Shown here piece by piece: positions 13,038 through 28,651 of a stretch of 28,651 bases of DNA; positions within the stretch are counted from its first letter, which is position 1; every line of letters begins with the position of its first letter. A program made the translations under genes and the position numbers. The notes below the pieces were generated by a model that ran no database searches, had not been told where the DNA came from, and was given only the letters and a program-made list of their open reading frames with translations. The stretch lies in IMG/VR virus record IMGVR_UViG_3300032287_002889, positions 1 to 28,651 of that record; one strand, given 5' to 3'. Source of the stretch: a virus.

Positions 13038-13712
13038 ATGGCATTTAAACTATTAGTTGACCAATACGCTGAAAACGATGAATTCGAAATCGTTAAAGAA
13101 GAAACCAACAATAAATCAAAACCCTCCTACTATGTAACTGGTCCTTACATGATGTGCGAAGAAGTTAACAAAAATAAACGCATCTATGATCGTGAGGAAA
13201 TGAGAAGGGAAGTTCATCGTTATACTGATGAAATGATTAATGTAAAGCGTTCATTAGGAGAGCTAAATCACAGTTCTAATCCAGAGATCAACTTAGAAAG
13301 AGCTTGTCATTTAGTCACTGAATTGAGAAACGAAGGAAATGTCTATGTCGGTAGATCCAAGATTCTTTCAACCCCATGTGGATTGATCGTTCAGGCATTA
13401 ATTGACGATGGTGTTAGAGTTGGAATGTCAACCAAGGCTTTGGGGAAACTTAACGAACAATACAACGGCACAAATCGTGTAAGTGATTTTAGACTCGTTG
13501 GTGTTGACTGCGTTGCCGATCCATCTTGTCCAAAAGCATTTGTTAATGGTATTTTAGAATCCAAGGAATACGTTCTTGCGGAAGACGGTTCATTCGAGGA
13601 ATCATATGACAAATTCAAAGAGAGAATTTCACAACTTCCTAGAAAAAATGTGGAAGATTACCTCAAGGAACAAATCATAGATTTCTTTGGTAAGATTTCC
13701 AAAGTGATGTAA
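13038..13712 (+). CDS. 21: Prohead core protein protease (T4 gp21-like)
   Basis: This 224-residue protein is close in length to T4 gp21. It shows the family signatures: N-K-R-I-Y (residues 46-50), GELNHSS with His78, a G-x-S-K-I-L-S-T-P-C-G strand, and VGMSTKALG with the nucleophile Ser131. A conserved V-D-C-V-A-D-P-S region follows. The enzyme assembles inside the prohead, degrades scaffold and cuts head proteins after Glu in sites of the (L/I)-x-E type, then digests itself. This is the obvious protease for the short Glu-ending tags on the proteins encoded between 15358 and 28284. No major capsid gene is visible downstream, so the head genes are split compared with T4. Confidence 0.9.
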   Translation: MAFKLLVDQYAENDEFEIVKEETNNKSKPSYYVTGPYMMCEEVNKNKRIYDREEMRREVHRYTDEMINVKRSLGELNHSSNPEINLERACHLVTELRNEGNVYVGRSKILSTPCGLIVQALIDDGVRVGMSTKALGKLNEQYNGTNRVSDFRLVGVDCVADPSCPKAFVNGILESKEYVLAEDGSFEESYDKFKERISQLPRKNVEDYLKEQIIDFFGKISKVM

Positions 13713-14069
13713 TTATTTCTTCTTTCTTTTTCTCAATTTCATTCTTGAGAAAATTGCCATCATAAGAACAAATATATCATATGGCTTGAGTATTTGAGAT
13801 ATTTTAGACTCTACTTGGTATATCCATTTCTCATTCTTTTCCTCATATAGATCATGCAATACCTCATGAATTATTGTGGGTATTATTTCCTTTCTATGAT
13901 CTATCTCTATTAAATCCCCGTAATACCATAGACCTCTCACACCTCTCATTTTACGGAACTGAAAAAAGCCGTTAGGCTTCTGTTTGATTCTTTGCACGAC
14001 CCTTCTAAAGATATAGCGGAGCTTTTTCTTGTCCAGATTTTTCGGGTCCGTGTTTTTCACCATCCGCAT
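13713..14069 (-). CDS. Small HExxH metallopeptidase-like protein
   Basis: This 118-residue basic protein has TIIHEVLHDLY at residues 65-75, a textbook zinc-peptidase HExxH (His68, Glu69, His72). Glu87 in WIYQVES is a candidate third ligand, as in gluzincin-like or SprT-like folds. The N-terminus is rich in Lys/Arg (RYIFRRVVQRIKQK) and the last residues are RMKLRKRKKK, which suggests binding to nucleic acid or an acidic partner. It is convergent with the protease gene: the two stop codons abut at 13712/13713. An AATAAATA motif precedes the start. The substrate is unknown; a host protein or a virion protein is equally possible. Confidence 0.65.
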   Translation of the reverse strand: MRMVKNTDPKNLDKKKLRYIFRRVVQRIKQKPNGFFQFRKMRGVRGLWYYGDLIEIDHRKEIIPTIIHEVLHDLYEEKNEKWIYQVESKISQILKPYDIFVLMMAIFSRMKLRKRKKK

Positions 14070-15357: not shown

Positions 15358-15600
15358 TCAATCCAAACCGCATTCCTTCATCTTGGAATAGTATTTTGGA
15401 TTTTCCGCAAGATGATCCATGGCAGTTTTTCTTTGCATTTTAACATTATCCTTGAAATGTTCTTTTTCTACTTCAATACCCATTTCAAGTTCTTTTTCCA
15501 AATCCTTAATGTCAACATTGTGTTTATTTGCAATGTCCTCCAAAGACATATCTTTAGACAAACCCTCCATTACTTTCTCAAATAGTTTTTGGAATCTCAT
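15358..15600 (-). CDS. DUF5661-like small protein
   Basis: This 80-residue acidic helical protein matches the pattern I know for DUF5661: EDIANKHNVDIKDLEKELEM, then G-I-E-V-E-K-E-H, and the ending AMDHLAENPKYYSKMKECGL. The conserved E-x-x-M-G-I-x-V-E-x-E-H ... A-x-D-H-L-x-E-x-P-x-Y-Y core is intact. Function of the family is unknown. Here the N-terminus MRFQKLFEKVMEGL resembles the packaging-type tag of the neighbours (M-R-x-F/Q-x-K-x-F-E). It follows the 140-residue gene by three bases and is therefore in the same minus-strand operon. Confidence 0.7.
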   Translation of the reverse strand: MRFQKLFEKVMEGLSKDMSLEDIANKHNVDIKDLEKELEMGIEVEKEHFKDNVKMQRKTAMDHLAENPKYYSKMKECGLD

Positions 15601-15603
15601 GAT

Positions 15604-16026
15604 TTAAAAAATTAATTTGGCAGCGATTGGTTTCATGTCCGATCCCAATTTGACTTCCAAGGTCTGAGGGAAAACTTGCCCATATTGTCCAACGGAAAAT
15701 TCAGTATCGACCTCTGGTAGAATAGAAAGATCAATATCAACCGGAGTTTCGGAATAATCGTGTCCAACAACTTCAATTGTAAAGGGACTTGCAGAAACAA
15801 AGCTTGCATTGATTTCCTTGATTCCATAGGAGCGATAATCAGGCTCGATTCGGTATCTGACCATGACGGACTTGGGTTTATTTACATCAAATATATCTTC
15901 TGTATTGAATTGAAGATCAATATCCAATTCAATCTCGGATTGAAATATATCATCAACTTGTTCTTTGATTATTCCCTTGGATTTCAAATATATGTTTTCC
16001 AATAAAACTTGGTCTTTGTTTCGCAT
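15604..16026 (-). CDS. Tagged protein of unknown function (MRNKDQVLLEN family N-terminus)
   Basis: This 140-residue protein starts MRNKDQVLLENIYLKSKGII, closely matching the N-termini of the proteins starting at 23516, 27371 and 28284, although their bodies are unrelated. After the tag the sequence is beta-rich (residues 30-140), for example SVMVRYRIEPDYRSYGIKEI and VFPQTLEVKLGSDMKPIAAK. There are no catalytic motifs or membrane segments. It carries a CTAAATAA late-type motif four bases upstream. I infer a small packaged head protein with a cleavable N-terminal tag ending near the Glu at position 10. Confidence 0.65.
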   Translation of the reverse strand: MRNKDQVLLENIYLKSKGIIKEQVDDIFQSEIELDIDLQFNTEDIFDVNKPKSVMVRYRIEPDYRSYGIKEINASFVSASPFTIEVVGHDYSETPVDIDLSILPEVDTEFSVGQYGQVFPQTLEVKLGSDMKPIAAKLIF

Positions 16027-16030
16027 GATA

Positions 16031-16038
16031 TTATTTAG
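16031..16038 (-). promoter_or_regulatory. Late-promoter-like motif CTAAATAA (minus strand)
   Basis: On the minus strand CTAAATAA lies four bases before the ATG at 16026 and contains the TAA stop codon of the upstream 844-residue gene. Confidence 0.5.
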
Positions 16039-18569
16039 AGTCTAAAAACTTTCTTTCTTAGTAATCCTATTGTCTTCATTGCATCGTGGTTCACAGATAC
16101 GCTTCCATATCTTTTGAATTCCAATTCCTTTAATCCCATGTCAACAATTTCCTCTGGACTATATCTTTCCCTATACCTAATAAGAACCGCTTCATTATAA
16201 CCAAAACTATTATAATTCATGGACTTTTGTTTTTTATTTAAAACAAAAATTATTTCATCATTGTGAGTTCTGATATAAAATGTTATAATGTAATCTTTGT
16301 CTGCGTCTTGGTACTTTTGTCTTATTTCCCAATCTCCTCTTTCATCTTTTTTTAATTTGATATTGAATCTCTTGGAGATACCTTCCAAGACTGGAGGAGC
16401 TTCCTTTTTTCCTTTAGGAAGCATATTCATGTCAGATATGGTTTTTTTCAATGCGTCTATAAGTTTTTCATGCACGTCATTTAAATAAACTTCAATTTCT
16501 TTTCTATTATCATAATCCGTTTCCGACTCTATCTTAATTCTTATTTTTTCATAGGATGGAGGGTAAACATATAATGTATAACTATTATCTTCTGGACGCA
16601 ATTTCAATAATTTAGAACCCCAGTGATCCTTGCTTTTCTCTGGTCTTAGTTCTGGAAAATTTTTAATGAAAAAAGAATATATTTTATTGTTGGGATCATC
16701 CTGTGTCCCTTGTTCCAGTATTTCCATTGCGGATGATTCCAGATATATAATTTGATTCGGTTCGTTGGAATGGATTATACCATCCCCTTCATCATATAAT
16801 ACATTGTATCCTGTCTTCTTAAACAAATTATTCCAAGATACATTCTTTGAATGCTCTCCATATATTTGTTTTCTCATCACTTCCAATGTTCCCCAAAACC
16901 TATGACCAACATCCATTTTTCCACTTCTATGATATACGTTTTGATTGCGATATGCGTTCTCACCTATTCCCATCTTCCTTAGTATATCAATAGCATCTTG
17001 CTCGCTCATTGTCGATAGGTTTAATATATTCGCTCTTGATGATGGTTTAACTATATAATAATCAACAAATTCTCTGAAACTCGGATTATTTTCCAAATTT
17101 CCACCCAATACATAATCCTTTGGAAATGCGTATATTCCAATTGGATCGTTATGAAATGGTTTTACGGTGATTCCAATATGGGGAGCTTTTTTATTATTAA
17201 CTCTATCATATGGAACACCTTTTGAAAAATGAACACCCACCATTGGATCATCGTATTTCTCCAATGCATCATAAACTTTTGGCATCATTTCCCTCGTCCA
17301 TTCGTTGAGGAGATTTATTTTTTCCTTTAACATCAAATACTTTTTGAATGTAACGTCTTCGTTTACTTTTATTTGTTGTTCTTCTGGATGAATTATTTCA
17401 CAATCTTTTGGAATATAATTTAACCTTTTCAGAAATTTTTTTGGGATAATTATTCTCTTCGCATCATGAACTGCAACTGTTCCATAACAATCTTTAAGAC
17501 TTCTTAAATCAATTGTTGTAGCGGAAGGACAAAAAACATGTCCTCCCAAAGTTTCTAGATTTTTTAAATCGAGAGACACTGCACTATGACAATCTATACC
17601 ATTTTTTAAAAATTTTAAATTACTTAAATTTATTTTTTTAGCAGCGGAAACAGAAATATTCCCGTTACATTCTTTAAGTTTATTTAAATCTACCGTTTCC
17701 GTTCCAGTAAGAATCATATTGTAACTACTTGATTCAAGATTACCTAAATCTATTTTTGTTGCACTACCAGCATTTATACCCCCACATGTTTTAAGTTTTT
17801 TTAAAATAACTTTTGGTGCATGGCTTAAATCTATAAAACCTGAACACGATTCAAGATTTTTTAAAAAATAAGTTTCACCAGTATAGAATGGTAAACTTAT
17901 GCTTTCATCCAAATGTTTTTCGAATTTTAGTTTTTCTATTAATTTTTTTCTTGTTTTTCTTATATTATCTATTTTTTCATCATCTATATCATATCCAGAA
18001 TCTTCTTTTCTTTTAATTGATGATATATCTGGATTTAATCTTTTCCAAGAGTTTCCATTATCTTCAGTATAAGAAAAAGGTATAAAGTTTCTTCTGTTCC
18101 ATATTACAGCCACCTTGCCATCTCTTTCTCCAGTAAAAATTATTCCATTGTATCCTTTAAGTTTACATTCTCTCCATATTTGTCTCGCTATTATGGATGT
18201 ATATGGATTTTCGCTTTCAATCTGGCTTTTAACCGCTTTACTATGCGTTCCTATTTTTCTCAAATGAATTTCAAAATCTCCTCTTGGATTTGCTAAACGA
18301 TATATGTCTTCATCCAATATCGCAAAACCATTTAAATCAACCTTTCCTTTTAAAATGAAATCACCATATTTTTCCATGTTAGGTTTTAATTGTTCATCCA
18401 AATCATAACAACAATACAAACCCCTACCATACATGGCAGATTGGTTGGAAGATGGTTTGATGCCATACTTTACAATATCGGAATCCTCTGGATTTTTTTT
18501 CGTCCTGTGATAAACCCAACCAGTATTACCCACTATCTTCTCGACTAAAAATTTTCTAAAAGTGATCAT
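16035..18569 (-). CDS. Large modular protein: tag, ADP-ribosyltransferase-like domain, 20-residue LRR-like solenoid, internal tag, second ART-like domain
   Basis: This is an 844-residue protein. Residues 1-12 (MITFRKFLVEKI) form the tag. Residues 15-170 look like a PARP/PolyVal-type ADP-ribosyltransferase: YHRT with His21, GIKPSS, MYGRGLY with Tyr47/Tyr52, and VAVIWNRRNFIPF; a catalytic Glu is not certain. Residues about 235-375 contain six or seven repeats with an exact 20-residue period (DL/NL at 275, 295, 315, 335, 355), a leucine-rich-repeat-like solenoid. Residues 407-417 (TFKKYLMLKEK) are an internal copy of the tag. Residues 444-612 resemble a second ART-like module: VGVHFSKGVPYDR, NDPIGIYAFPKDYVL and GDGIIHSNEPNQIIYLES. 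The last 220 residues are unrecognised. Its ATG overlaps the stop of the upstream paralogue by four bases. Injected host-modifying function is inferred by analogy with T4 Alt. Confidence 0.65.
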   Translation of the reverse strand: MITFRKFLVEKIVGNTGWVYHRTKKNPEDSDIVKYGIKPSSNQSAMYGRGLYCCYDLDEQLKPNMEKYGDFILKGKVDLNGFAILDEDIYRLANPRGDFEIHLRKIGTHSKAVKSQIESENPYTSIIARQIWRECKLKGYNGIIFTGERDGKVAVIWNRRNFIPFSYTEDNGNSWKRLNPDISSIKRKEDSGYDIDDEKIDNIRKTRKKLIEKLKFEKHLDESISLPFYTGETYFLKNLESCSGFIDLSHAPKVILKKLKTCGGINAGSATKIDLGNLESSSYNMILTGTETVDLNKLKECNGNISVSAAKKINLSNLKFLKNGIDCHSAVSLDLKNLETLGGHVFCPSATTIDLRSLKDCYGTVAVHDAKRIIIPKKFLKRLNYIPKDCEIIHPEEQQIKVNEDVTFKKYLMLKEKINLLNEWTREMMPKVYDALEKYDDPMVGVHFSKGVPYDRVNNKKAPHIGITVKPFHNDPIGIYAFPKDYVLGGNLENNPSFREFVDYYIVKPSSRANILNLSTMSEQDAIDILRKMGIGENAYRNQNVYHRSGKMDVGHRFWGTLEVMRKQIYGEHSKNVSWNNLFKKTGYNVLYDEGDGIIHSNEPNQIIYLESSAMEILEQGTQDDPNNKIYSFFIKNFPELRPEKSKDHWGSKLLKLRPEDNSYTLYVYPPSYEKIRIKIESETDYDNRKEIEVYLNDVHEKLIDALKKTISDMNMLPKGKKEAPPVLEGISKRFNIKLKKDERGDWEIRQKYQDADKDYIITFYIRTHNDEIIFVLNKKQKSMNYNSFGYNEAVLIRYRERYSPEEIVDMGLKELEFKRYGSVSVNHDAMKTIGLLRKKVFRL

Positions 18570-20233
18570 CCTAGTATCTTCTCCTTTACTTTATCCCCAA
18601 ACATTTCTCTCAATTTGGCATAATACTCTGGAGTTCCAACAAGATATTTAACGACAACTCCAACGTCTGGATATTGTAGCTTTATACCACCGTCTTTTTG
18701 ATATTCAAGTATCTCCGCTCCACCCAATACTTCTGGTGGTATACTTCTCTTTAATACTTGTCTCTCAAGGAAGTTTGGTTCTCTCATTCCTCTTCTTACA
18801 GCAATATCTTTTATATCTTTACTTACCATACCCCAAAGAGGCATTTTCATCGATATAAGATCATTTATTCCCTTGAGTTTTGATCTATTGTCTCCTGCCA
18901 TTCCAACAAGTTTTACAAGACCAGATCTTTGTCTTCTTATTGCAACATATCCCTTCTCATCACCATAGAACTCCCAATTCCTCGCCCTCCCCATAAACTT
19001 GTCATAACTCCAACTATTTCCTGTTGACTTATCATATTCGTTCTTGAATATTTCATATGCGGAGTCAAGAGGAATCTGAACAAGACTTTCTTTCAACATC
19101 AAATACTTTTTGAATGATGTATTCTCATTCACTTTTATTTGAGGCGTATCTTCTGGATGAATTATTTCACAATCAGAAGGAACATCAATCAAATTATTTA
19201 TAAGATGTTTTGGGATGATTATTTTTTTTGCACTAGGAGCAACAATCTCCCCCGTGTTAAAATTTGGTAAGTTAACTTCTGTCGCATTATCGAGATAAAT
19301 TGAACTACAATATTTTAAATTTGGTAAGTTAATTTTGTCTATGATCGTAGCATAAATATTCGAACATATCTGTAAATTTGGTAGGTTTATTTCTGTTGCA
19401 TTACCAACCTCAATAAGCCCACATTTCTGTAAATTGGGTAGGTTAATTTTTTGCACATAAGAGGCTATAATATTCCGACATTTCTGTAAATTTGGTAGGT
19501 TTATTTCTGTTTCATTATACATAATAATATTCCCAATTTTTTTTAATTTTTTCAAAAAAACAATTCCTTTATAATCAGGTGGAACAATCAATTTTTCAAG
19601 TTCTTCCTTATCTGAAATTTCTTTTAATAATTTACTAAAATTAATTTTTTCATCATCTTTATCATATTCTGGATCATGTGGTCTTTTAATAGATGCGATA
19701 TCTGGTGTCAATTTTGCCCAATTTTTTCCCTCGTCTTCCGTGTATTGGAAAGGTATGAAGTTTCTCCTGTTCCATATGACAGCAACCTTTCCATCACTTC
19801 TTCCTGTAAACACTATTCCATTATATCCTTTTTGTTTACATTTCTTCCATATGTTTTTAGCTATTTCTGAGGTATATGGGCTTTCATCTTTTACACTTTC
19901 CATGTTGGTTCCAATTTGCTCCAAATGCTTTTGAAAGTTTCCCTTCGGGTTTGCCAACCAATATACATCAGAATCAAGTATCGCAAAACCATTTAAGTCT
20001 ATCTTACCCTTTAAAATATATGAACCATATCTTGTCATGTTTGGTTTCATTTGTTGATCCAAGTCGTAACAAGTATATAAACCCCTACCATACATGGCGG
20101 ATTCGTTGGAAGATGCTTTGATACCATATTTCACTATGTCATATTTGCTTGGGTTATCCGGTGTCCTGTGATAAACCCAACCAGTATTACCAAATACCCT
20201 TTCCAATAAAACGTGATCTTTGAATTGCAACAT
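18566..20233 (-). CDS. Modular paralogue: tag, ADP-ribosyltransferase-like domain, 19-residue LRR-like solenoid, internal tag, unknown C-terminal domain
   Basis: This 555-residue protein is paralogous to the downstream gene over its first ~370 residues: MLQFKDHVLLERVFGNTGWV, YHRT with His22, YGRGLY (48-53), VIWNRRNFIPF. Its solenoid (residues 240-325) has EINLPNLQKC-type repeats of exactly 19 residues (INL at 244, 263, 282, 301, 320), one shorter than the partner. Both proteins then share IPK...VPSDCEIIHPED and an internal tag (SFKKYLMLKE, 373-382). The C-terminal 170 residues differ from the paralogue: EFYGDEKGYVAIRRQRSGLV and LVGMAGDNRSKLKGINDLI suggest a divergent acetyltransferase-like fold, uncertain. 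The two genes form a minus-strand operon with a four-base overlap (18566-18569), driven by CTAAATAA at 20241-20248. Confidence 0.65.
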   Translation of the reverse strand: MLQFKDHVLLERVFGNTGWVYHRTPDNPSKYDIVKYGIKASSNESAMYGRGLYTCYDLDQQMKPNMTRYGSYILKGKIDLNGFAILDSDVYWLANPKGNFQKHLEQIGTNMESVKDESPYTSEIAKNIWKKCKQKGYNGIVFTGRSDGKVAVIWNRRNFIPFQYTEDEGKNWAKLTPDIASIKRPHDPEYDKDDEKINFSKLLKEISDKEELEKLIVPPDYKGIVFLKKLKKIGNIIMYNETEINLPNLQKCRNIIASYVQKINLPNLQKCGLIEVGNATEINLPNLQICSNIYATIIDKINLPNLKYCSSIYLDNATEVNLPNFNTGEIVAPSAKKIIIPKHLINNLIDVPSDCEIIHPEDTPQIKVNENTSFKKYLMLKESLVQIPLDSAYEIFKNEYDKSTGNSWSYDKFMGRARNWEFYGDEKGYVAIRRQRSGLVKLVGMAGDNRSKLKGINDLISMKMPLWGMVSKDIKDIAVRRGMREPNFLERQVLKRSIPPEVLGGAEILEYQKDGGIKLQYPDVGVVVKYLVGTPEYYAKLREMFGDKVKEKILG

Positions 20234-20240
20234 TATTGAA

Positions 20241-20248
20241 TTATTTAG
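20241..20248 (-). promoter_or_regulatory. Late-promoter-like motif CTAAATAA (minus strand)
   Basis: On the minus strand CTAAATAA lies seven bases before the ATG at 20233 and would drive the two-gene ART/LRR operon. Confidence 0.5.
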
Positions 20249-20297
20249 AAAAAACGCGATGTAGCTTCAAGGAATTTCCACCCGAAGTTTTTTTCTT

Positions 20298-20325
20298 TTG
20301 ACAAACAATTAAAAACATATACAAT
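20298..20325 (+). promoter_or_regulatory. Sigma70-like promoter TTGACA-N16-TACAAT
   Basis: TTGACA at 20298-20303 and TACAAT at 20320-20325 are separated by 16 bases, an excellent match to the bacterial housekeeping consensus. The ATG at 20333 is only seven bases after the -10 box, so the transcript would be leaderless. It differs in type from the TAAATAA motifs of the neighbouring genes, which suggests early transcription by host polymerase. Confidence 0.6.
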
Positions 20326-20332
20326 ACTACAA

Positions 20333-20824
20333 ATGGTGGAAATAGAAATCAAAAAAGAATGGATTGAGAATTCAAAGAAAAAGGCAAAGGAGATGGGAAG
20401 GCTCAGACATTCCATACTAAAGGGTCAGGGAAACATTACAGGATTCTTGGGCGAGTATATGGTATCAGACTTTCTAAAAGCAAAAATAGAAAACACCTAT
20501 GACTATGATCTCATTAAAAGTGGATTGAAAATAGATGTGAAGAGCAAGAAATGCACAAGCATACCAAGACCGGAATATGATTGTTCTGTTCCTGCATACA
20601 ATACAAGACAAAAGTGTGACTACTATGTATTCACTAGAATCATGGATGACTTCCATACAGGATGGATATGTGGGATTATATCCAAGGAGAATTTTTTCAA
20701 GAATGCAAGGCTATACAAAAAGGGAGAAGTTGACAAGAGCAACTGGATGGAATTCAAAGAGGATTCCTATAATATGAAGATCAAGGACTTGTTGGACTTG
20801 GGGAAGTTGGTGAAGGTATCCTAA
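20333..20824 (+). CDS. PD-(D/E)xK nuclease-like protein
   Basis: This is a 163-residue protein. ITGFLGEYMVSDFLKA (Glu41) followed by LIKSGLKIDVKSKK (Asp68-x-Lys70) is the arrangement of a PD-(D/E)xK-fold endonuclease: helix Glu, then strand Asp and the D-x-K motif. A later segment CDYYVFTRI and GWICGIISKENFF fits the final core strands. It probably cuts or processes DNA, phage or host, during replication or host takeover; the specific substrate is unknown. Unlike its neighbours it has no packaging-type tag, lies on the opposite strand and has a sigma70-like promoter. Its stop codon overlaps that of the convergent 190-residue gene. Confidence 0.65.
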   Translation: MVEIEIKKEWIENSKKKAKEMGRLRHSILKGQGNITGFLGEYMVSDFLKAKIENTYDYDLIKSGLKIDVKSKKCTSIPRPEYDCSVPAYNTRQKCDYYVFTRIMDDFHTGWICGIISKENFFKNARLYKKGEVDKSNWMEFKEDSYNMKIKDLLDLGKLVKVS

Positions 20825-21393
20825 GATCCTTGCTCAAGATCCTGAATCATTTCCTTCATAAGATCATCATCACCATAACCAATGTTAAAGGGAGTCTCAT
20901 TCATCAGACCTTCATTGCCAACCTTCTGGTATGCCCAGACATATTTTAGATTACCTTTTGTTTTCTTGGAACCACCATCTTCATCTTCCGATTCATCATC
21001 ATCCCTTTCACCGTAAGGATCATAGTCTGGGTCTTCGTATCTATTAAGACCATAGGGAACACCATTCACATTTGCAACATATTCATAATCATTGTGCAAT
21101 TCTGAAGTATTGTCACTTGTAACTTTCTTGAACTTCAAGGCATTGGGAGGAATTTTTGATATCAGATTTTTTGCATCCCAATAACAAACCCCTCTGTAAT
21201 TATTGAGTCTATTATTTTCTGCATCATAAGAAACGGAATCCATAGCCTCGTAATATTCATCGCTTCCCTTTTTTATACCAACAAGAACAGAATCAAGATA
21301 GTTTGCAAATTCAACAGGACTCATTGCGGATATCTCTTCACTTGTTTTTACCGCATTCTCTTTTAATAGAATATATTTTTTAAAGGAAATCAT
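20821..21393 (-). CDS. Tagged acidic protein of unknown function
   Basis: This 190-residue protein has the N-terminal tag MISFKKYILLKENAV, nearly identical to the internal tags of the two ART/LRR proteins (FKKYLMLKE). The body starts with EEISAMSPVEFANYLDSVLV, contains VCYWDAKNLISKIPPNALKF, and has a highly acidic stretch (EDPDYDPYGERDDDESEDED) at about residues 120-140. No family is recognised. Its ATG overlaps the stop codon of the 708-residue gene by four bases (21390-21393), so both are made from one late transcript. Confidence 0.65.
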   Translation of the reverse strand: MISFKKYILLKENAVKTSEEISAMSPVEFANYLDSVLVGIKKGSDEYYEAMDSVSYDAENNRLNNYRGVCYWDAKNLISKIPPNALKFKKVTSDNTSELHNDYEYVANVNGVPYGLNRYEDPDYDPYGERDDDESEDEDGGSKKTKGNLKYVWAYQKVGNEGLMNETPFNIGYGDDDLMKEMIQDLEQGS

Positions 21394-23516
21394 AAAAAGT
21401 ATTTCGAATAAACCCTTTTCAAGTTTTCAGTAGATGTATTCTTCACATTGAATATCTCATACATGACAATGTATCTTGCCGCATTGAAAAGATCCTCAAC
21501 TGAATTGTCCAAGAATATCAAAAGATCATAAAGTTCTTTTGTTAATACAGATTCGTCATAATAAATGTTTAGAGTGAAATTTGCATAGGATGTCCCCTCT
21601 TTCAATGATGAGAGGTTGTTGTCTGTTTGCAAGGAAAGAGACACCTCACACCTTATACCATATTCTTCCAATGTCTTTCTCCCTTGAACAGATTCCAAGA
21701 ATCCCTTGAAAGTCATTTGGTTTGGATTTTCTTTTGGCGTCACTCTATATACCGTATTTAAATAATTAGACAAGAATCTGGGATACTTTTGGTTTAAATA
21801 TTGATTAGTTTTTATTGGATTGTATTCAAGTATCCCACCAGTCGGCGTTGGGACCGGACCCAATGTATCGGTAGTATATAGATTGGAATCACTGAAATCC
21901 ATATCGAAATTTTTAAGATTGGATTCCAGATCCTCATCCTCGATTATATTTGATGTTTCGATGTTTTTAATGAACCCGTTTTTCATCAATGCTTTTTTGA
22001 ACGCCTTGACTATCCCATCATACTCTCCATCATACCTATCAATCTCTTCCAAGAAATTTCTATAGTCATCGGTATTGAAAGATGAAGAAGAACAATCATC
22101 TCCAAAACAACAATTTAAATATATATCCTTATCATTTCTTCCGATATATATTCCGCTCCACATTGTATCTGCGAAATCTGTTGGATCGAAATCTTTAAAA
22201 TCTCTTATGAATTTTGATAATCTTCTAGCCAAATTTTCCTTGTCTTTAAAACTATAAGGGAGTTCCTTGTCCCATCTATTTTCGCTAGAAGGATTGTATC
22301 TTCCTAATTGTTTAAATTCATAGTATTCATTTAAATCATCTCCCATAAGGAAAAAATCATCAGATAATTCCCCCAATTCATCAGTTGATATTGATAATGA
22401 TCCCCATGCACTGTAATAAGGATCTTCACCGTCCCCATCGTTATCCATGTCATAGGATGCTGAAAAATTTTCAAAACTATATCTATTTTGGAAATTCCTT
22501 AACTCTTCATCGAACTGATCCCATCTGCTTTGAGATTCATCTTGAGAATCGTGTTCCAAAGATCCGTAAAAAGTATCAGTATCAAACATTTGATTGAAAA
22601 CGTGTGAATCACTGGAATCCGAATAACTCCCACCTGTTCTAACCCAACCCTTTCTTTTAAATTCAGATGAAACTTTATCCAAATCGTTTTCCCCGAATTG
22701 CTTTTCTTTGAAAAAGCTTTTAACGGTATCATAAAAACCAGATATTCTATCTCCATATATTCTTGTTTCTGGAACTCCTATGCTTATATTTGGATCTTCC
22801 TCATACCTATATCTTCTAATTCTCAATCTAGATATAGGATCAATACCCTCAATTCCCCTATCTTTATCTCTAAAAATTTCATCATATTGAAATGCCTCTT
22901 CGGATATTTTTCCCAAGTCCTCTGTCTTAACAAGATATGCTATTGGACCACCTGTCTTTGCCTCTTGAATGGCACAATGGAAATATTGACCACCCTGAGA
23001 GTGGCATGATTTTATAGACCCGACATCGGACATTCTCAAGACATCTATGGGGCTTCTTGAGACGACAACAGTATATTTTCCCATGCTTTGCATTTCAGGA
23101 ATATTGGAAGAATAATTCGCAAACCAATCCAGCATTTTTTTCTTTTCTTCTTCTGGAATATTGAGTGAGGATATCGCTCTCCCAAGATTTATTTTTTGGT
23201 ATTTCACCCCACCACCGTATTTTGGATCGACTTCTATTTTTTTAACAACTTCTTTTTTATCAGGATCAAAGTGGCTGAAATTTTTAATTTGTGATATTTG
23301 ATTGATTATTTGTGAATATTCGCCAGTCCCTTTAAGGGGAACCTTGATTCTCAACTTATCTCCAAATATGTTATTGAAAGGAAGCTCTTTATCAGAAACA
23401 GCGTCTTTTATTTCATCCACAAATCTTTGGGAAATTTCATTGATAACGGATCTTCCAAAAGAAGAAACATTATTAAGATAAAGACTTTCTAAAATGAATG
23501 AATCATTGTCACGCAT
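21390..23516 (-). CDS. Large tagged protein with a conserved phage SCHS/CA domain
   Basis: This 708-residue protein starts with MRDNDSFILESLYLNNV, the second type of tag. Residues 150-200 contain VVVSRSPIDVLRMSDVG, then S-C-H-S (170-173), GGQYFHCAIQEAKTGGPIAY and LVKTEDLG. As I recall, this block is conserved in several large T4-like phages without known function; its Cys/His content hints at an active site or a metal site. The middle (about 280-480) is rich in Asp, Ser and Tyr. MTFKGFLES at about 601-609 resembles the other tag type and may mark a domain boundary. It is first of a two-gene minus operon, with TTAAATAA upstream. A packaged enzyme or head protein is inferred. Confidence 0.65.
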   Translation of the reverse strand: MRDNDSFILESLYLNNVSSFGRSVINEISQRFVDEIKDAVSDKELPFNNIFGDKLRIKVPLKGTGEYSQIINQISQIKNFSHFDPDKKEVVKKIEVDPKYGGGVKYQKINLGRAISSLNIPEEEKKKMLDWFANYSSNIPEMQSMGKYTVVVSRSPIDVLRMSDVGSIKSCHSQGGQYFHCAIQEAKTGGPIAYLVKTEDLGKISEEAFQYDEIFRDKDRGIEGIDPISRLRIRRYRYEEDPNISIGVPETRIYGDRISGFYDTVKSFFKEKQFGENDLDKVSSEFKRKGWVRTGGSYSDSSDSHVFNQMFDTDTFYGSLEHDSQDESQSRWDQFDEELRNFQNRYSFENFSASYDMDNDGDGEDPYYSAWGSLSISTDELGELSDDFFLMGDDLNEYYEFKQLGRYNPSSENRWDKELPYSFKDKENLARRLSKFIRDFKDFDPTDFADTMWSGIYIGRNDKDIYLNCCFGDDCSSSSFNTDDYRNFLEEIDRYDGEYDGIVKAFKKALMKNGFIKNIETSNIIEDEDLESNLKNFDMDFSDSNLYTTDTLGPVPTPTGGILEYNPIKTNQYLNQKYPRFLSNYLNTVYRVTPKENPNQMTFKGFLESVQGRKTLEEYGIRCEVSLSLQTDNNLSSLKEGTSYANFTLNIYYDESVLTKELYDLLIFLDNSVEDLFNAARYIVMYEIFNVKNTSTENLKRVYSKYFL

Positions 23517-23520
23517 AAAA

Positions 23521-23528
23521 TTATTTAA
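23521..23528 (-). promoter_or_regulatory. Late-promoter-like motif TTAAATAA (minus strand)
   Basis: On the minus strand TTAAATAA lies four bases before the ATG at 23516 and directly follows the stop codon of the upstream 207-residue gene. Confidence 0.5.
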
Positions 23529-24152
23529 TCAGGACTTGAGTCTGTCACGGACGAAGTTGAAAATCTCCATCTTGTCGGAATCTATCTCGGAGTTTATTAT
23601 CTCCCTGCCATCTACCCTGAGACCAACAAGCTTGTCGATGCCATATGTTCTCCACTTCAATGGTGCAGAACCGGAACTTGGTATGAGGTAATTCTTTGCC
23701 TCATCCTTTTCTATGTAATGGATTTCCCCGCTTTTCTCACGGACGACAAATAGACTTGTGGATTGGTTGATCTGTGTCTGGTCGAACATGAGAAGAGGAA
23801 GACCCCTCTTGGATATGCCAATACTTCTGGAAATTCTTTCTGCGACCACACTGCTGGACTGTGCCTCGAAGTCACCCTCTCCACCCTGCTTTACTATTTC
23901 CCTGTTCATCTTTTTCTCGTAATCAGTAAGTTCGGCAACTGTTTGTGTGATTTTATAAAGAGAGGCAAAGGGGAATCCTGTCTTCCTATACTTGGGTATT
24001 GTGACAGAAGTGAAACTTATGGGAATGATTCTATCCCCACCCCTTGTTTCCGTCTCCACAATGAAGTCCATGATATCCTGTATTGTCATTTCCTGTCCAC
24101 CCGATCCAAGACCGAATGCCATCTCTTGCAAGTATTTTTTGAATGTTCGCAT
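23529..24152 (-). CDS. Tagged protein of unknown function with T4-CTS-like N-terminus
   Basis: This 207-residue protein starts MRTFKKYLQEMAFGLGSGGQ, the copy most similar to the T4 internal-protein leader (MKTYQEFIAEA): a basic second residue, Thr3, an aromatic fourth, then hydrophobic residues and Glu10. The body contains IPISFTSVTIPKYRKTGFPF, an E/Q-rich helix, GISKRGLPLLMFDQTQINQS and WRTYGIDKLVGLRVDGREII. No known family is recognised. DNA in this gene looks slightly richer in GC than its neighbours. It is transcribed divergently from the 501-residue gene from an overlapping palindromic promoter. Confidence 0.65.
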   Translation of the reverse strand: MRTFKKYLQEMAFGLGSGGQEMTIQDIMDFIVETETRGGDRIIPISFTSVTIPKYRKTGFPFASLYKITQTVAELTDYEKKMNREIVKQGGEGDFEAQSSSVVAERISRSIGISKRGLPLLMFDQTQINQSTSLFVVREKSGEIHYIEKDEAKNYLIPSSGSAPLKWRTYGIDKLVGLRVDGREIINSEIDSDKMEIFNFVRDRLKS

Positions 24153-24157
24153 ATGTT

Positions 24158-24169
24158 TATTTATAAATA
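24158..24169. promoter_or_regulatory. Palindromic bidirectional late promoter TATTTATAAATA
   Basis: The 12 bases TATTTATAAATA equal their own reverse complement. TATAAATA can be read on the plus strand (24162-24169, ten bases before ATG 24180) and on the minus strand (24165-24158, five bases before ATG 24152). One palindrome therefore serves both divergent tagged genes within a 27-base intergenic region. Confidence 0.6.
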
Positions 24170-24179
24170 ATTGGAAAAA

Positions 24180-25685
24180 ATGATAAAGTTCAAGGAATAT
24201 GTTTTAAAAGAAGAGAAAGAAGTATTCGGACCACCAAACGAAGAAAAGTTTGAGATGTGGGATAGGGTGAAAAGAAAAGAAATGTCCGAAGATGAATTTT
24301 TAAAATTAATTGGTTTTGAGAGAGTTAAACCAAATAGTAGATTTGATGTTGAAGATGAATCAAAAAAGGATCATGGTTTCTTCAATGTTAATGAATATTT
24401 TCAGAATAATTTGATACATAGAAAGAGCTTTTGGGAAGATGGTGAAATTTGGGAAAAATGGTGGGAATGGAGTGAAAATGGGATTCCTAAAAAACATTGG
24501 GATAATAGAGGGAATGAGAAAGTTATAGATGAAAAAATCGATGAAGAGGGAAGATTGACCAAAATTAACATACTTAAAGAGTATGGTAATTTTAGACAAA
24601 AAAGAATAGAGGTGTTTGCAAAGAAAAGAGGTGATAAGCGCGATCCAGAATATTATTACTACGAGAATGAAAAGGGAGTTAAGGATGAATCAAAATTTGA
24701 ATACAAATACGATGAAAATTCAAATTTAGTATATTTCAAGCAAACGATTATCGTGGCTGACTATGTTCCAAAAAACGATACATACGAAAAAGTAATGGAA
24801 TATTGGGAAAACGGTAAATTGAAAAATGAAAACATATATGAAAACGGAGAATTGAATGTCAAAAGAAGTTCGAGCTATACACAAAACGGAACACAAAAAT
24901 TAGCAGATGTAGTTACAAATGCAGCAAAAGAAAGAGCAAAGGAATACAACGAAAAATATCATGGGATATTCTTACATTCCGTATCAAAGTATGACGTGAG
25001 GCAATTGATCGAAATAAAAGAAGAAGGTCAAAAGGCGGAAATATGTGTATCGACATTGAGAAGCAATACGGTATTTCAATCTGGAGTTGGTAGGATTGTT
25101 ATTGTAGGATTTGGGAATATAAGGGAACTATATGATTACGATTCCTATAGTGAGAGAGATGAAGATGGGACCAGATATGCTACAAAGACATTGGGGGACT
25201 CGCTTCGTTCAGGTCTACACGATATGGGCAAAGACTACGAGGGTTATAACGAGGAATACCACTATGATGAGGGTTTCATGGACTTCTCAAATGCGGAAGT
25301 TGTTGCTGTATTTGCTGATTATAATAATGTAATAAACAATTGGGTCTGTTTGAATGATGGTGGGCATATGTATTCCGATACGATTGTATATAAAAGAGAG
25401 TTACCTAAAATATATAAAGAATATAAAAACTATGTGTCAGATCGAGTCGATAAAATAAAAGCAATATCTTTCAAGGAATGCATAAAGAAAATCGATCCAA
25501 ATATAAAGGTTATAGGATTGGACAAGTTTAATCAATTACAAAACTCTGAGGAACTAATGAGATTGATGTATAAACTCAAGGAAGAAAAAGAAGCATCTGA
25601 TATAATGGATAAGCCCCTTCAACCCTACGAAGAGAAAACAAATTTCAAGACATTCAAAAATTATATAATTGAAAAAACCCTATAG
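24180..25685 (+). CDS. Tagged protein with YwqK/MORN-like repeats and a second tag at its C-terminus
   Basis: The ATG at 24180 is chosen over an in-frame TTG at 24171 because the protein then begins MIKFKEYVLKEEKEV, matching the neighbouring tags. It has 501 residues. The N-terminal half has WEDGEIWEKWWEWSENGIPK, YEYKYDE-type and YWENGKLKNENIYENGELN segments, resembling YwqK/MORN-like repeats. The C-terminal half has a distinct domain with ICVSTLRSNTVFQSGVGRIV, IVGFGNIRELYDYDSYSERD and FSNAEVVAVFADYNN. The final 14 residues, NFKTFKNYIIEKTL, are another tag-like copy at the very end. It is the only tagged protein on the plus strand here. No function can be named. Confidence 0.65.
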   Translation: MIKFKEYVLKEEKEVFGPPNEEKFEMWDRVKRKEMSEDEFLKLIGFERVKPNSRFDVEDESKKDHGFFNVNEYFQNNLIHRKSFWEDGEIWEKWWEWSENGIPKKHWDNRGNEKVIDEKIDEEGRLTKINILKEYGNFRQKRIEVFAKKRGDKRDPEYYYYENEKGVKDESKFEYKYDENSNLVYFKQTIIVADYVPKNDTYEKVMEYWENGKLKNENIYENGELNVKRSSSYTQNGTQKLADVVTNAAKERAKEYNEKYHGIFLHSVSKYDVRQLIEIKEEGQKAEICVSTLRSNTVFQSGVGRIVIVGFGNIRELYDYDSYSERDEDGTRYATKTLGDSLRSGLHDMGKDYEGYNEEYHYDEGFMDFSNAEVVAVFADYNNVINNWVCLNDGGHMYSDTIVYKRELPKIYKEYKNYVSDRVDKIKAISFKECIKKIDPNIKVIGLDKFNQLQNSEELMRLMYKLKEEKEASDIMDKPLQPYEEKTNFKTFKNYIIEKTL

Positions 25686-25704
25686 GGAAAATCCTTGAAA
25701 TAAA

Positions 25705-25732
25705 TTGACAAAAAAATAAAATGCTTTAGGAT
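25705..25732 (+). promoter_or_regulatory. Sigma70-like promoter TTGACA-N16-TAGGAT
   Basis: TTGACA at 25705-25710 and TAGGAT at 25727-25732 (four of six matches to TATAAT) are 16 bases apart, nine bases before the ATG at 25742. AGAGAG between the -10 box and the ATG could help ribosome binding. Confidence 0.45.
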
Positions 25733-25741
25733 AGAGAGAAT

Positions 25742-26293
25742 ATGGAAAAATATCCAGAGCAAAAGGAGTGGTCAGATATAAATGGATTTGAGGGATTATA
25801 TCAAATTAGAATGATAGAAGAGGAACCATGGGTGGAAATTAAAAGTCTTCTTAGACATAAAAGAGAATTAAAATTTGAGAAATCAAGCAAAGGATATTAT
25901 ATTGTAAAACTTTATAAAAAAAATCAACCTTATAGGAGATATCAAAAAAAGGTTCATAGACTTGTGGCATTGCAATATATTCCAAATTTAGAAAACAAAT
26001 ACACTGTAAATCACAAGAACGGAATCAAGACAGACAATAGAATAGAGAACTTGGAATGGCTCACTATATTGGAAAATAATATACATGCGCGTGAAAATGG
26101 TCTTATTGATAATAGAGGAGAAAGGCATTTCAATTTCAAAGGAAAAATAGGAGTATATAAAGATGGTGCTCTAATTGATACTATTACAGGAAGAAAGGAA
26201 ATGATTCTAAAGGGATGGGGGAAAACGCATGTATATAAAGCGGTAAAAGGGGAAATCAAATCATATAAGGGACATACATTTAAAAGATTGTGA
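25742..26293 (+). CDS. HNH homing endonuclease with NUMOD4 domain
   Basis: This is a 183-residue protein. Residues 5-20 (PEQKEWSDINGFEGLYQI) are a NUMOD4 DNA-binding motif. The HNH core is VHRLVALQYIPN (residues 71-82) followed by VNHKNGIKTDNRIENLEWLT, which holds the expected His, Asn and Asn/Glu residues. A C-terminal part with GRKEMILKGWGKTHVYKAVK looks like a helix-turn-helix DNA-binding repeat of the NUMOD/IENR type. The protein is a free-standing selfish nuclease between two convergent cargo genes, with its own sigma70-like promoter. It carries no tag, so it is an insertion unrelated to its neighbours' role. Confidence 0.88.
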   Translation: MEKYPEQKEWSDINGFEGLYQIRMIEEEPWVEIKSLLRHKRELKFEKSSKGYYIVKLYKKNQPYRRYQKKVHRLVALQYIPNLENKYTVNHKNGIKTDNRIENLEWLTILENNIHARENGLIDNRGERHFNFKGKIGVYKDGALIDTITGRKEMILKGWGKTHVYKAVKGEIKSYKGHTFKRL

Positions 26294-26390
26294 AAATTCT
26301 CTATATGGGAAATATCTAAAAAATTTTGAAAAAAAAAATTTTATGAAATATGGGGAATTTGAAAAAGCCCCCCTATGTGTGTGAAAAAAA
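26294..26390. terminator. Convergent intergenic region with possible hairpin terminator
   Basis: Between the HNH gene and the convergent minus-strand gene lies an A/T-rich stretch. It contains GGGG (26352-26355) and a C6 run (26368-26373) that can pair across a 12-base loop, with A/T tracts on both sides. CCCCCTATGTGT at 26369-26380 recurs at 27456-27467. Confidence 0.3.
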
Positions 26391-27371
26391 TTATTGATTT
26401 ATATAAGGATTGGATTCGATTAGTTTAGTTATGGTATCGTTTATTTCATCTATAATATCTATTTTTTCACTATGGTTTTTAATTTCGGAATCATTCAAAC
26501 GGGAATTGAAAAGAACAAAATATAATTGTTTTATATATTCATCAGATGGCATATCGTGAATCCTCATACATAGCTTTTCAATTTTTCCAAGCAATTCCGA
26601 ATCGAAACTTGTGATGGAATGTATAACAAGCTTGGGCATCCAATCTTCCAATAGAGAATCCTTTACTATCTTCGAGAGCGGTTCCCTGTTTTGTTTTATT
26701 TCCAAGGATTCCATGTGTTTTTTGGCAGGATCAGCATATAGATCAAAACACAATTCAACGTAAAGGTTGAAAAACATTTTCTTTAAAAAAGACATTGTGC
26801 TTGGATAATTCCCAAGCCTGTTTAAAGTATATACAAGACCTGAATAATCCTTATCCAATTCGGAACAAATACCATCATCCTTTTTTTCCATGTTATCTAT
26901 CATGACATCACCCTTTCCGTTTTTAGATAGATATCCCGTTAAGTTGCTTGAAAGAAATTCGTCTATTTTCTTTATAAACTGCGAAGTGTCGTATACTTCA
27001 CTAAATGGCCCGAATGTTAAAAGTGATTCAGAGGAATTTGTAATTTTTTCCGTATCCATATTATGTTTTTTACCAAATCCTGAAAAATCCATTCCTTGTT
27101 TCGAATCTATATTGGAATTCTTTATTTTTTCAGAAAAATCCCTATCGGTTGCCAATTTCTCAAGGACATCCATTAGATAATCATCAACATTGGAAAAAAA
27201 CCCTTGAATATCGACATATATGGAACCATCATGAAACAATTGAATTATTGATATATTGCCATCGTCTGTTTCTATATGTCTGTCATTTGTTTGATTGACC
27301 CTTTGGACATTTTCTCTCAAAACAATTTTTTCATACAATGATTCTAATATTATTTGGTCCTTGTTTTTCAT
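26391..27371 (-). CDS. Tagged protein of unknown function
   Basis: This 326-residue protein has the N-terminus MKNKDQIILESLYEKIVLRE, of the second tag type. The first 120 residues are mixed, with ISIIQLFHDGSIYVDIQGFF. The rest is mainly helical, including GYLSKNGKGDVMIDNMEKKD, LSKIVKDSLLEDWMPKLVIH and a C-terminal helix IIDEINDTITKLIESNPYIN. No domain is recognised. CATAAATA lies six bases upstream, preceded by the 40-bp repeat shared with the gene to its right. A head-packaged protein is inferred from the tag only. Confidence 0.6.
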   Translation of the reverse strand: MKNKDQIILESLYEKIVLRENVQRVNQTNDRHIETDDGNISIIQLFHDGSIYVDIQGFFSNVDDYLMDVLEKLATDRDFSEKIKNSNIDSKQGMDFSGFGKKHNMDTEKITNSSESLLTFGPFSEVYDTSQFIKKIDEFLSSNLTGYLSKNGKGDVMIDNMEKKDDGICSELDKDYSGLVYTLNRLGNYPSTMSFLKKMFFNLYVELCFDLYADPAKKHMESLEIKQNREPLSKIVKDSLLEDWMPKLVIHSITSFDSELLGKIEKLCMRIHDMPSDEYIKQLYFVLFNSRLNDSEIKNHSEKIDIIDEINDTITKLIESNPYINQ

Positions 27372-27377
27372 TCTATA

Positions 27378-27385
27378 TATTTATG
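27378..27385 (-). promoter_or_regulatory. Late-promoter-like motif CATAAATA (minus strand)
   Basis: On the minus strand CATAAATA lies six bases before the ATG at 27371, just downstream of the terminator-like hairpin of the 40-bp repeat. Confidence 0.5.
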
Positions 27386-27388
27386 TGT

Positions 27389-27428
27389 AAAAAGCCAATG
27401 GCTGAATTTATGGGAAATTTTTGAAAAA
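27389..27428 (-). repeat. 40-bp intergenic repeat, copy A, with terminator-like hairpin
   Basis: Bases 27389-27428 match 28299-28338 at 39 of 40 positions (the difference is at 27413/28323). Read on the minus strand, it holds AGCC-ATT-GGCT followed by TTTTT, a small intrinsic-terminator-like hairpin, immediately before the CATAAATA promoter. It could insulate the upstream gene's transcript from the next promoter. Confidence 0.75.
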
Positions 27429-27437
27429 ATGTTGAAA

Positions 27438-27460
27438 GTACACACCCCCCCCCCACCCCC
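27438..27460. other. C-tract (G-tract on minus strand) at the 3' end of the GNAT-like gene
   Basis: The plus strand has a C-run of ten, an A and five more C, preceded by GTACACA. The minus strand is thus G5-T-G10-T-G-T-G. The TAG stop of the upstream gene overlaps its edge. The tract may slip in sequencing, or pair with other G-runs; a related but shorter tract is at 28349-28365. Confidence 0.6.
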
Positions 27461-28284
27461 TATGTGTTTTTTAATTTAACACTATATGAATTTTTACTAT
27501 TATCGAAATTTACTGTCAAGTTATTAACAGGAATTGGTCTATTCACCCCATCGTAATAGTATATTAAATTCCCCTCATAGCTCCCAATAGCATGATATCC
27601 TTTTGAAACTCTTGGATCAAATGTATATTCCTTTTCTATATTTCTTTTCGAATATGCATAGAAAAAACTCTCCAAATCACTCCAATCGTTCGTGGGGTGA
27701 TTCCAGCCACCTTTATCCGTAATTATATTATTTATATCATCTTCTATTCTTTTGATATCACTTTGATCAACACTTATCGACTTTGGTTCGATTTTCGACC
27801 TATCTTCACTTTTCCTTGGTCGATATCCGTTTCTACCTTGAAATATAAAACCTCTTTTTTGGTACCAAGATTTTAATTCCTCTGGAGAAAGACCCATTTT
27901 CCCGCCTCCTCTCACCACATCCTCCGGATCTATTGTCAAACCTATTGAAATATCATGTTTATCGGCTTCCGCAACTATTCTATCAAGCTCCTTGCTTGCG
28001 GCACCTTTGTTTCTTTTTTCTACATCTTCAACACCAATATAATTGAGTTCAATGTCACCAGCATATTCTTCTCCATCGAATTCCACAAGAGGGGCTTCGT
28101 CTTTAAACGATACTTCAACCCCTTCATCATTTATATAATTACCAGCATCTCCCCTTAAAGGATTGTATAGTGTTTGTTGTTTTCCACTACTGAGAATTTT
28201 TATAAATTCAAAAGCATCCATATTTTCTTTAATCAATATATTAAAATAAATGGATTCCAAAATAATACTGTCATTATCTCTCAT
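27460..28284 (-). CDS. Tagged GNAT-like acetyltransferase
   Basis: The ATG at 28284 is preferred over one at 28290 because the protein then begins MRDNDSIILESIYFN, identical in seven of the first eight residues to the 708-residue protein, and because it leaves a normal distance to the late motif. It has 274 residues. After the tag, IELNYIGVEDVEKRNKGAAS then KELDRIVAEADKHDISIGL, and later LSPEELKSWYQKRGFIFQGR, reproduce GNAT motifs: the central strand, the R-x-x-G-x-G/A acetyl-CoA loop (here R-N-K-G-A-A, slightly degenerate) and the W-Y-x-x-x-G-F ending. The last 120 residues are unrecognised. An injected acetyltransferase acting on a host or phage target is inferred. Confidence 0.65.
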   Translation of the reverse strand: MRDNDSIILESIYFNILIKENMDAFEFIKILSSGKQQTLYNPLRGDAGNYINDEGVEVSFKDEAPLVEFDGEEYAGDIELNYIGVEDVEKRNKGAASKELDRIVAEADKHDISIGLTIDPEDVVRGGGKMGLSPEELKSWYQKRGFIFQGRNGYRPRKSEDRSKIEPKSISVDQSDIKRIEDDINNIITDKGGWNHPTNDWSDLESFFYAYSKRNIEKEYTFDPRVSKGYHAIGSYEGNLIYYYDGVNRPIPVNNLTVNFDNSKNSYSVKLKNT

Positions 28285-28292
28285 AGTCATAT

Positions 28293-28300
28293 TTATTTAA
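28293..28300 (-). promoter_or_regulatory. Late-promoter-like motif TTAAATAA (minus strand)
   Basis: On the minus strand TTAAATAA lies eight bases before the ATG at 28284 and overlaps the end of the 40-bp repeat by two bases. Confidence 0.45.
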
Positions 28301-28338
28301 AAAGCCAATGGCTGAATTTATGCGAAATTTTTGAAAAA
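28299..28338 (-). repeat. 40-bp intergenic repeat, copy B, with terminator-like hairpin
   Basis: This copy differs from copy A (27389-27428) at one position. It again carries AGCC-ATT-GGCT-TTTT on the minus strand, followed directly by a late-type motif and a tagged gene. Both copies have a C-tract on their far side, so the repeated unit is a composite of G-tract, A/T spacer, hairpin and promoter. Confidence 0.75.
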
Positions 28339-28516
28339 TATTTTTTTGCACACACCCCCACCCCATTTTTTTTTATACGCCTATTATACCAAATTTTGGT
28401 GCTTCCCCCTATTGGCACACTTCCTGCTGGTAGCAGTTCCCGTGCCAACATATTCCCCATACACCGCAATTCCCATGCCAACCATACACCATATGGCACA
28501 AGCACCCCTAGCATAA

Positions 28517-28651
28517 ACCATGCCATGTATGGGGGATGCCCCATTCAGAAACCATGCCATGTATGGGGGATGCCCCATTCAGAAACCATGCCATGTATGG
28601 GGGATGCCCCATTCAGAAACCATGCCATGTATGGGGGATGCCCCATTCAGA
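28517..28651. repeat. 34-bp tandem repeat array with internal hairpin, at least four copies
   Basis: Units begin with ACCATGCCATGTATGGGGGA at 28517, 28551, 28585 and 28619; the last is cut by the window end. Copies are identical as far as seen. Each contains ATGGGG-GATG-CCCCAT, a perfect six-base stem with a four-base loop. There are no spacers, so it is not a CRISPR array. The period is not a multiple of three, so it does not encode a repeated peptide in one frame. Confidence 0.9.

Follow-up and report, generated by a model that had tools for sequence, protein, structure and literature searches.

A block of tagged genes in a T4-like phage is best explained as a capsid-cargo locus of the T4 kind (probability roughly 0.78). 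Its products would be internal proteins, i.e. injected effectors, marked by one of two short N-terminal tags, of which type A would be the T4 signal and type B a second signal. The block begins at 15.3 kb of IMG/VR record IMGVR_UViG_3300032287_002889, whose entire 28,651 bases constitute the window analysed here and represent part of the genome of a T4-like phage. That the encoded proteins are targeted, cleaved and injected, and how they act, are points that we infer. The original prediction had named ten proteins with unrelated bodies, and all ten open reading frames (ORFs) and their N-termini are present as named, apart from two start coordinates. For the 504-amino-acid (aa) gene the listed start is a TTG at 24171, but the tag begins at the ATG at 24180, and in the gene listed with 276 aa the tag starts at 28284 and not at 28290. 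The bodies are mostly unrelated, but the 844-aa and 555-aa proteins are paralogues with common repeats and an N-terminal domain of 69% identity, which leaves nine body families. An automatic count with a loose regular expression scored 10 of the 13 ORFs of at least 60 aa to the right of 15.3 kb as tagged, including an ORF at the right edge (28174-28650) that lies outside the named ten and omitting the weakly tagged 80-aa gene.

Type A tags carry Phe at position 4, Tyr or Phe (once His) at position 7 and Ile, Leu or Val at position 8, and they end in a Glu at positions 9 to 13 that is preceded two positions earlier by an aliphatic residue (LxE); in four genes beginning with MM, this register is read from the first Met. 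Mutational work on the T4 internal protein IPIII assigned targeting to residues 4 and 7 and processing to residues 8 and 10 (PMC9026906). The type A register coincides with these determinants, which argues for a capsid-targeting signal of the T4 type. According to the sequence record, IPIII begins with MKTYQEFIAE, and the start of IPI, MKTFKEF, has a core identical to that of type A. With respect to the features of a capsid-targeting sequence (CTS) leader, type A shows the aromatic residues at 4 and 7, the aliphatic residue at 8 and the Glu at or near 10; moreover, a protease of the gp21 family is encoded in the genome and leaders of one kind are common to otherwise unrelated proteins (17 families in this phage group, and 67 for type B in IMG/VR, see below). 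On these sequence grounds, the identification of type A with the T4 capsid-targeting sequence is well supported. A type A-shaped regular expression applied to the whole T4 genome retrieved four ORFs, namely IPII, IPIII, gp61.1 and one other. The uncharacterised gp61.1 (NC_000866, 18966-19130, L176) comprises 54 aa, begins with MKTFKEFIKE and looks like an unrecognised internal protein of T4.

The type B tag follows the consensus M[RK]xKDQILLExxYxxhhxxE. A search of IMG/VR with the DNA pattern for MRx[KN]DQ--LE--Y yielded 48 stretches, whereas a decoy with the same codons in permuted order yielded one; a second pattern, MKxKDxILLExxY, yielded 83 stretches, the decoy covering the first pattern only. 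Both patterns together delivered 135 proteins of more than 60 aa that fall into 67 unrelated body families, and no closed frames of less than 40 aa were found among the matches. Positions that the patterns leave free show conservation too, residue 6 being Gln in 68 of 82 cases. Additionally, 100 of the 135 proteins contain a second [LIVFM]xE site at residues 15-27, compared with 22% of random body windows, as would be expected if the leader terminates in a protease site. Dense clusters of B-tagged genes with interspersed A-tagged ones were detected in the contigs G024, G023 and G013. A tblastn search of the consensus against cultured phages gave no match, with a 20-aa query and the low-complexity filter limiting this search, and no paper on KDQILLE was found in the open-access literature. 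Type B thus appears not to have been described before.

The assumption that both tags do the same job is mainly based on their exchange on conserved bodies. Three body families wear type A in one phage and type B in another, namely a GP88-like family, an ADP-ribosyltransferase (ART)-like family and the family of the 504-aa protein of the window. In family 10 (Pfam GP88), MMTFKKYLELVKE|AFDPEMGT of G003 is replaced by MRTKDQLVLESLYTNIAIKE|AFDPSLGS in L032 and L040, the swap junction lying exactly after the Glu, where homology restarts. The corresponding tag pair of the ART-like family 11 is MLSFKQFLESKEESDFSYPL and MRNKDQILLENLYDSISNDKFSYPL, and family 7, which holds the 504-aa protein, carries type A in the window and type B in L042 at 38.6% identity over 251 aa. 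These comparisons suggest, less directly than is the case for type A, that type B is a second, interchangeable signal of the same route.

The protease that would process the tags is encoded within the window at 13038-13712 on the plus strand (phrog_207, head maturation protease); its predicted assignment to the gp21 type was borne out by a match to Pfam Peptidase_S77 (E=1.1e-28). All six tag-bearing records longer than 140 kb likewise encode a Peptidase_S77 protein. Candidate gp21 sites in the major capsid protein gp23, read from sequence and by analogy to T4, were taken from the nearest complete proteins of related phages (G019, G015 and G040), since G010, a member of the window's own group, ends inside gp23. 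They are CIEE|AGG, CLEE|AGN and CLRE|ANV and lie about 60-80 residues into the protein, the T4 counterpart being FLTE|AEI. The resemblance of IEE, LEE and LRE before Ala to the LxE sites of the tags argues for processing of the tags by gp21. Two phages with type B tags encode gp21 as a 614-aa frame with a Peptidase_S77 match in two parts (G017, 97447-98994; G035, 147021-148568), which suggests an intein or another in-frame insertion. In some relatives, namely L004 (4002-5159) and L010 and L011 (10710-11846), gp21 has directly downstream of it a gene of roughly 380 aa that resembles a Hint/intein-type element (ILSEEGWKDARDIQKGENVYTLN).

That the tag pattern is commoner at N-termini than chance would produce was established by counts in which the interior of the same proteins served as control. 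Seven N-terminal type A matches were observed in the window against 0.55 expected (p=1e-6), comprising the five clear A tags, the MAFKLLVDQY of gp21 itself and the right-edge ORF, and four type B matches against approximately zero. The window and 12 relatives, ten of them found via gp21 (86-96% identity) and two via a cargo gene, contain 38 type A and 9 type B matches against 3.1 and 0 expected. Since several relatives are near-identical, the pooled p-values are too small; a safer figure is the count of tagged body families without mutual relationship, of which this phage group has 17.

Tags were also detected inside the 844-aa, 555-aa and 708-aa proteins and at the C-terminus of the 504-aa protein, where the original prediction had overlooked them. 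The 844-aa protein (16035-18569, minus strand; N-terminal tag MITFRKFLVE) and the 555-aa protein (18566-20233, minus strand; MLQFKDHVLLE) share a layout of type A tag, conserved N-terminal domain with a possible ART assignment, leucine-rich-like repeats, EIIHPE..IKV, the internal tag FKKYLMLKE and one of two unrelated C-terminal modules. The internal type A tags are DVTFKKYLMLKE at 17310-17357 and NTSFKKYLMLKE at 19073-19123, both on the minus strand. The C-terminal module of the larger protein comprises 430 aa and stands alone as an independently tagged gene (MITFRKYILLNEWTRE at the N-terminus) in L018 (8557) and L017 (9393). A B-tagged 658-aa protein of G013 contains similar repeats, EIIHPEDQEVKV, the internal tag FKDYLLE and then DUF5661, a domain that is encoded by a free 80-aa gene in the window. 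Among tagged proteins (29.7 thousand residues in total), 14 strict internal A tags were counted, and among untagged ones (217.7 thousand residues) 7, a 14.7-fold enrichment; each homologue entered these counts on its own, and a truncated protein of family 7 accounts for one of the 'untagged' cases. In several proteins an internal A tag thus persists at the point of fusion of two tagged genes, which suggests that the fused products are cargo polyproteins cut by gp21. The C-terminal FKTFKNYIIEK of the 504-aa protein (25644-25676) can be likened to the C-terminus of T4 Alt, which is likewise cut by gp21, Alt being processed at both ends (PMC9026906).

With regard to the bodies, the original prediction had listed ART-like and GNAT-like proteins among the tagged set. 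A tagged family of the former kind is present among the relatives: the AlphaFold2 model of family 11 (predicted local distance difference test score 82) comprises disordered tag residues 1-19 and a folded body, and Foldseek retrieved a cyanophage A4 ejectosome protein as the best PDB match and PARPs and KptA after it, with probabilities close to 1 and E values down to 2e-4, the phage matches including ART-PolyVal proteins. The modelled ART fold of family 11 is thus well supported. The corresponding domain of the 844-aa and 555-aa pair matched family 11 weakly (hhalign E=0.0011, probability 21%) and had no Pfam match; a profile search against PDB gave chance matches only, and the quality of the AlphaFold2 model of the 844-aa protein did not permit a classification of the N-terminal domain, so that the ART assignment of the pair is only suggestive. 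The GNAT-like assignment was not sustained, since the protein has no Pfam match up to E=1 and falls into a PHROG of unknown function. Other tagged bodies resemble a methyltransferase, a poly(A) polymerase head, HD, peptidase M91 and GP88, with several weak matches under the curated cut-off. A tblastn search of the window bodies against cultured phages matched almost nothing, which indicates that most of them are new; no relatives of the 708-aa protein were found in IMG/VR, and PADLOC found nothing in the window cargo. In T4, each of Ip1-3 acts as an inhibitor of distinct restriction enzymes of the GmrSD type (PMC12373910); by analogy, an anti-defence role is likely for many of the cargo proteins.

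The sequence TAAATA is the core of the T4-type late promoter. Late-promoter-like TAAATA motifs are located before the 140-aa gene (16032-16037, minus strand) and at 20242-20247, 23522-23527, 27378-27383 and 28290-28299; between the divergent 207-aa and 504-aa genes, two such motifs stand back to back in the palindrome TTTATTTATAAATAA (24158-24169), which could act as a two-way late promoter of tagged genes. In this phage group, TAAATA was found upstream of 28 of the 44 tagged genes compared with 2.5% of random 40-mers. The 326-aa and 274-aa genes of the window have a common upstream sequence of the type that recurs in phages with type B tags, where upstream DNA and tag are up to 97% identical before unrelated bodies and identity falls to background after about +60 nt. 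This drop some 60 nt into the gene suggests a promoter-and-tag cassette to which new bodies are attached.

The cassette structure allows the reading that conservation acts on the DNA of the tags, which would serve as cassettes for recombination or as promoter cassettes and whose peptide would have no targeting role. We consider this very unlikely, as identity upstream of the genes is just 0.30-0.47 across families while the tag codons are conserved, synonymous changes retain the peptide, and internal tags occur far from any start codon. Chance matches among lysine-rich proteins, for which the shortness of type A might speak, are practically out of the question: the rates in protein interiors do not account for the seven and four tags of the window, nor does the permuted-codon decoy with its single stretch against 48, and a chance origin was rejected on both counts. 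It is also improbable that many of the tagged proteins, instead of being injected as effectors, are structural parts of the prohead core; the core proteins of T4 are likewise cut by gp21 (PMC9026906), but the bodies considered here turn over between close relatives and include the enzyme-like domains mentioned above, from the ART fold to peptidase M91.

Somewhat more room, within what we still regard as unlikely, is left for the view that only type A targets the capsid and that type B sends proteins elsewhere, e.g. to the tail, the baseplate, a membrane or a host structure. Type B was not found in a whole-genome scan of T4, and it lacks the aromatic residues at 4 and 7 that matter in T4, so that it does not conform to a CTS leader and its filing as a T4 capsid-targeting sequence by sequence was rejected. 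This view is opposed by the exchange of A and B on homologous bodies in three families, by the adjacency of A- and B-tagged genes in the window, G024, G023 and G013, and by the LxE site that terminates both tags. The deviation of type B from the T4 determinants nevertheless weighs against the cargo-locus reading, as do three further points. Strict A tags are absent from the genomes of S-WAM2 and Cr30, so that not every T4-like phage possesses the signal; the window bodies are almost devoid of recognisable domains, DUF5661 being the sole one; and TAAATA also precedes 41% of untagged genes (p=0.004 for the enrichment at tagged ones), so that late expression does not set the cargo apart from other late genes.

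If the block is a cargo locus, the tagged genes would be expressed late in infection, and the N-terminal tag would bind the prohead core and bring the protein into the assembling head, types A and B serving as interchangeable signals on one route. The gp21 protease would then cut after the final LxE of the tag, releasing the mature protein and splitting the internally tagged polyproteins. The mature cargo would remain in the head with the DNA, be injected into the next host and act at once by countering host defences or reprogramming the cell. The predicted locus of gp21-processed, injected cargo with T4-type tags is well supported as regards type A, whereas the support from type B is less direct; targeting, cleavage and injection are its conjectural steps.

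The closest known counterparts are the T4 proteins IPI, IPII and IPIII, which have in common with the block a short N-terminal leader on unrelated bodies, the residue register of type A, a gp21 gene in the genome and the character of hypervariable accessory genes with T4-type late-promoter-like motifs. The block differs by its tag class B, by a density of up to ten tagged genes within 13 kb, by the size of its proteins, which reach 844 aa, and by internal and C-terminal tags. The original prediction had regarded a clustered cargo locus as undescribed; this has to be withdrawn, because clustered, hypervariable, leader-marked internal-protein genes are already known in T-even phages (PMC12373910). 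That source places T4 Ip1-3 in two loci and reports at least 10 Ips. Injected, CTS-tagged, clustered and variable internal proteins of T-even phages are accordingly established (PMC12373910; PMC9026906). The ART-fold cargo of the relatives recalls T4 Alt, an injected ADP-ribosyltransferase, but is PARP-like or ART-PolyVal-like by fold search and no more than a possible homologue of Alt. Polyvalent proteins (PMC5512222) similarly combine several domains, ART and peptidase-type ones among them, and are predicted to be injected; however, each is one long chain and was recognised by its domain content, whereas here each module has its own tag and predicted cut site. The ejection proteins of the phiKZ-like giant phage SPN3US lose propeptides after Glu through a gp21 relative (PMC9026906), and no tag sequence in common was seen, although no search was aimed at one.

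Judged by the open literature and by the databases that were searched, the new elements are tag class B, the interchange of A and B, the large set of cargo families and the fusions with internal tags. We lean towards regarding type B as an undescribed capsid-entry signal that is interchangeable with the T4 CTS and marks a very large pool of injected effectors, some of them made as polyproteins cut at internal tags. If this is true, a twelve-residue signature would list the injected effectors of uncultivated T4-like phages directly from sequence. At least 67 body families, most of them without a known domain, stand under one tag class in one database. They would offer ample material in which proteins for anti-defence and host takeover could be tested for directly, a value that derives from the T4 internal proteins having proved specific inhibitors of restriction systems, and the tags themselves would provide a ready set for delivery.

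From left to right, the window contains tail-fibre-like genes, a gp13-like neck gene, a gp4-like head closure gene, the gp21 gene and the tagged block. The gp21 gene is followed by a 118-aa protein gene (13713-14069) on the opposite strand with an HEVLH zinc-protease-like motif, which is conserved straight after gp21. The block starts on the minus strand with the 80-aa DUF5661 gene (15358-15600; Pfam E=3e-14), whose MRFQKLFE is by tag comparison a degenerate case, its homologue in G010 having the full type A tag MLSFKEYILLE. Further minus-strand cargo genes encode proteins of 140 aa (15604-16026; type B, MRNKDQVLLENIYLKSKGIIKE, by tag comparison), 190 aa (20821-21393; type A, MISFKKYILLKE), 708 aa (21390-23516; type B, MRDNDSFILESLY, with an internal A-like tag MTFKGFLES at residues 601-610), 207 aa (23529-24152; type A, MRTFKKYLQE), 326 aa (26391-27371; type B, MKNKDQIILESLYEKIVLRE) and 274 aa (27460-28284; type B, MRDNDSIILESIYFNILIKE). 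The protein of about 500 aa that is listed with 504 aa is encoded on the plus strand (24180-25685; type A, MIKFKEYVLKE). Untagged genes within the block specify a 163-aa protein (20333-20824) and an HNH endonuclease (25742-26293), the latter being free-standing, inserted among the cargo genes and also present in relatives. Both ends of the record lie within repeats, namely an 84/66-bp repeat array at the left edge (1-248) and a perfect 34-bp tandem repeat at the right edge (28515-28651).
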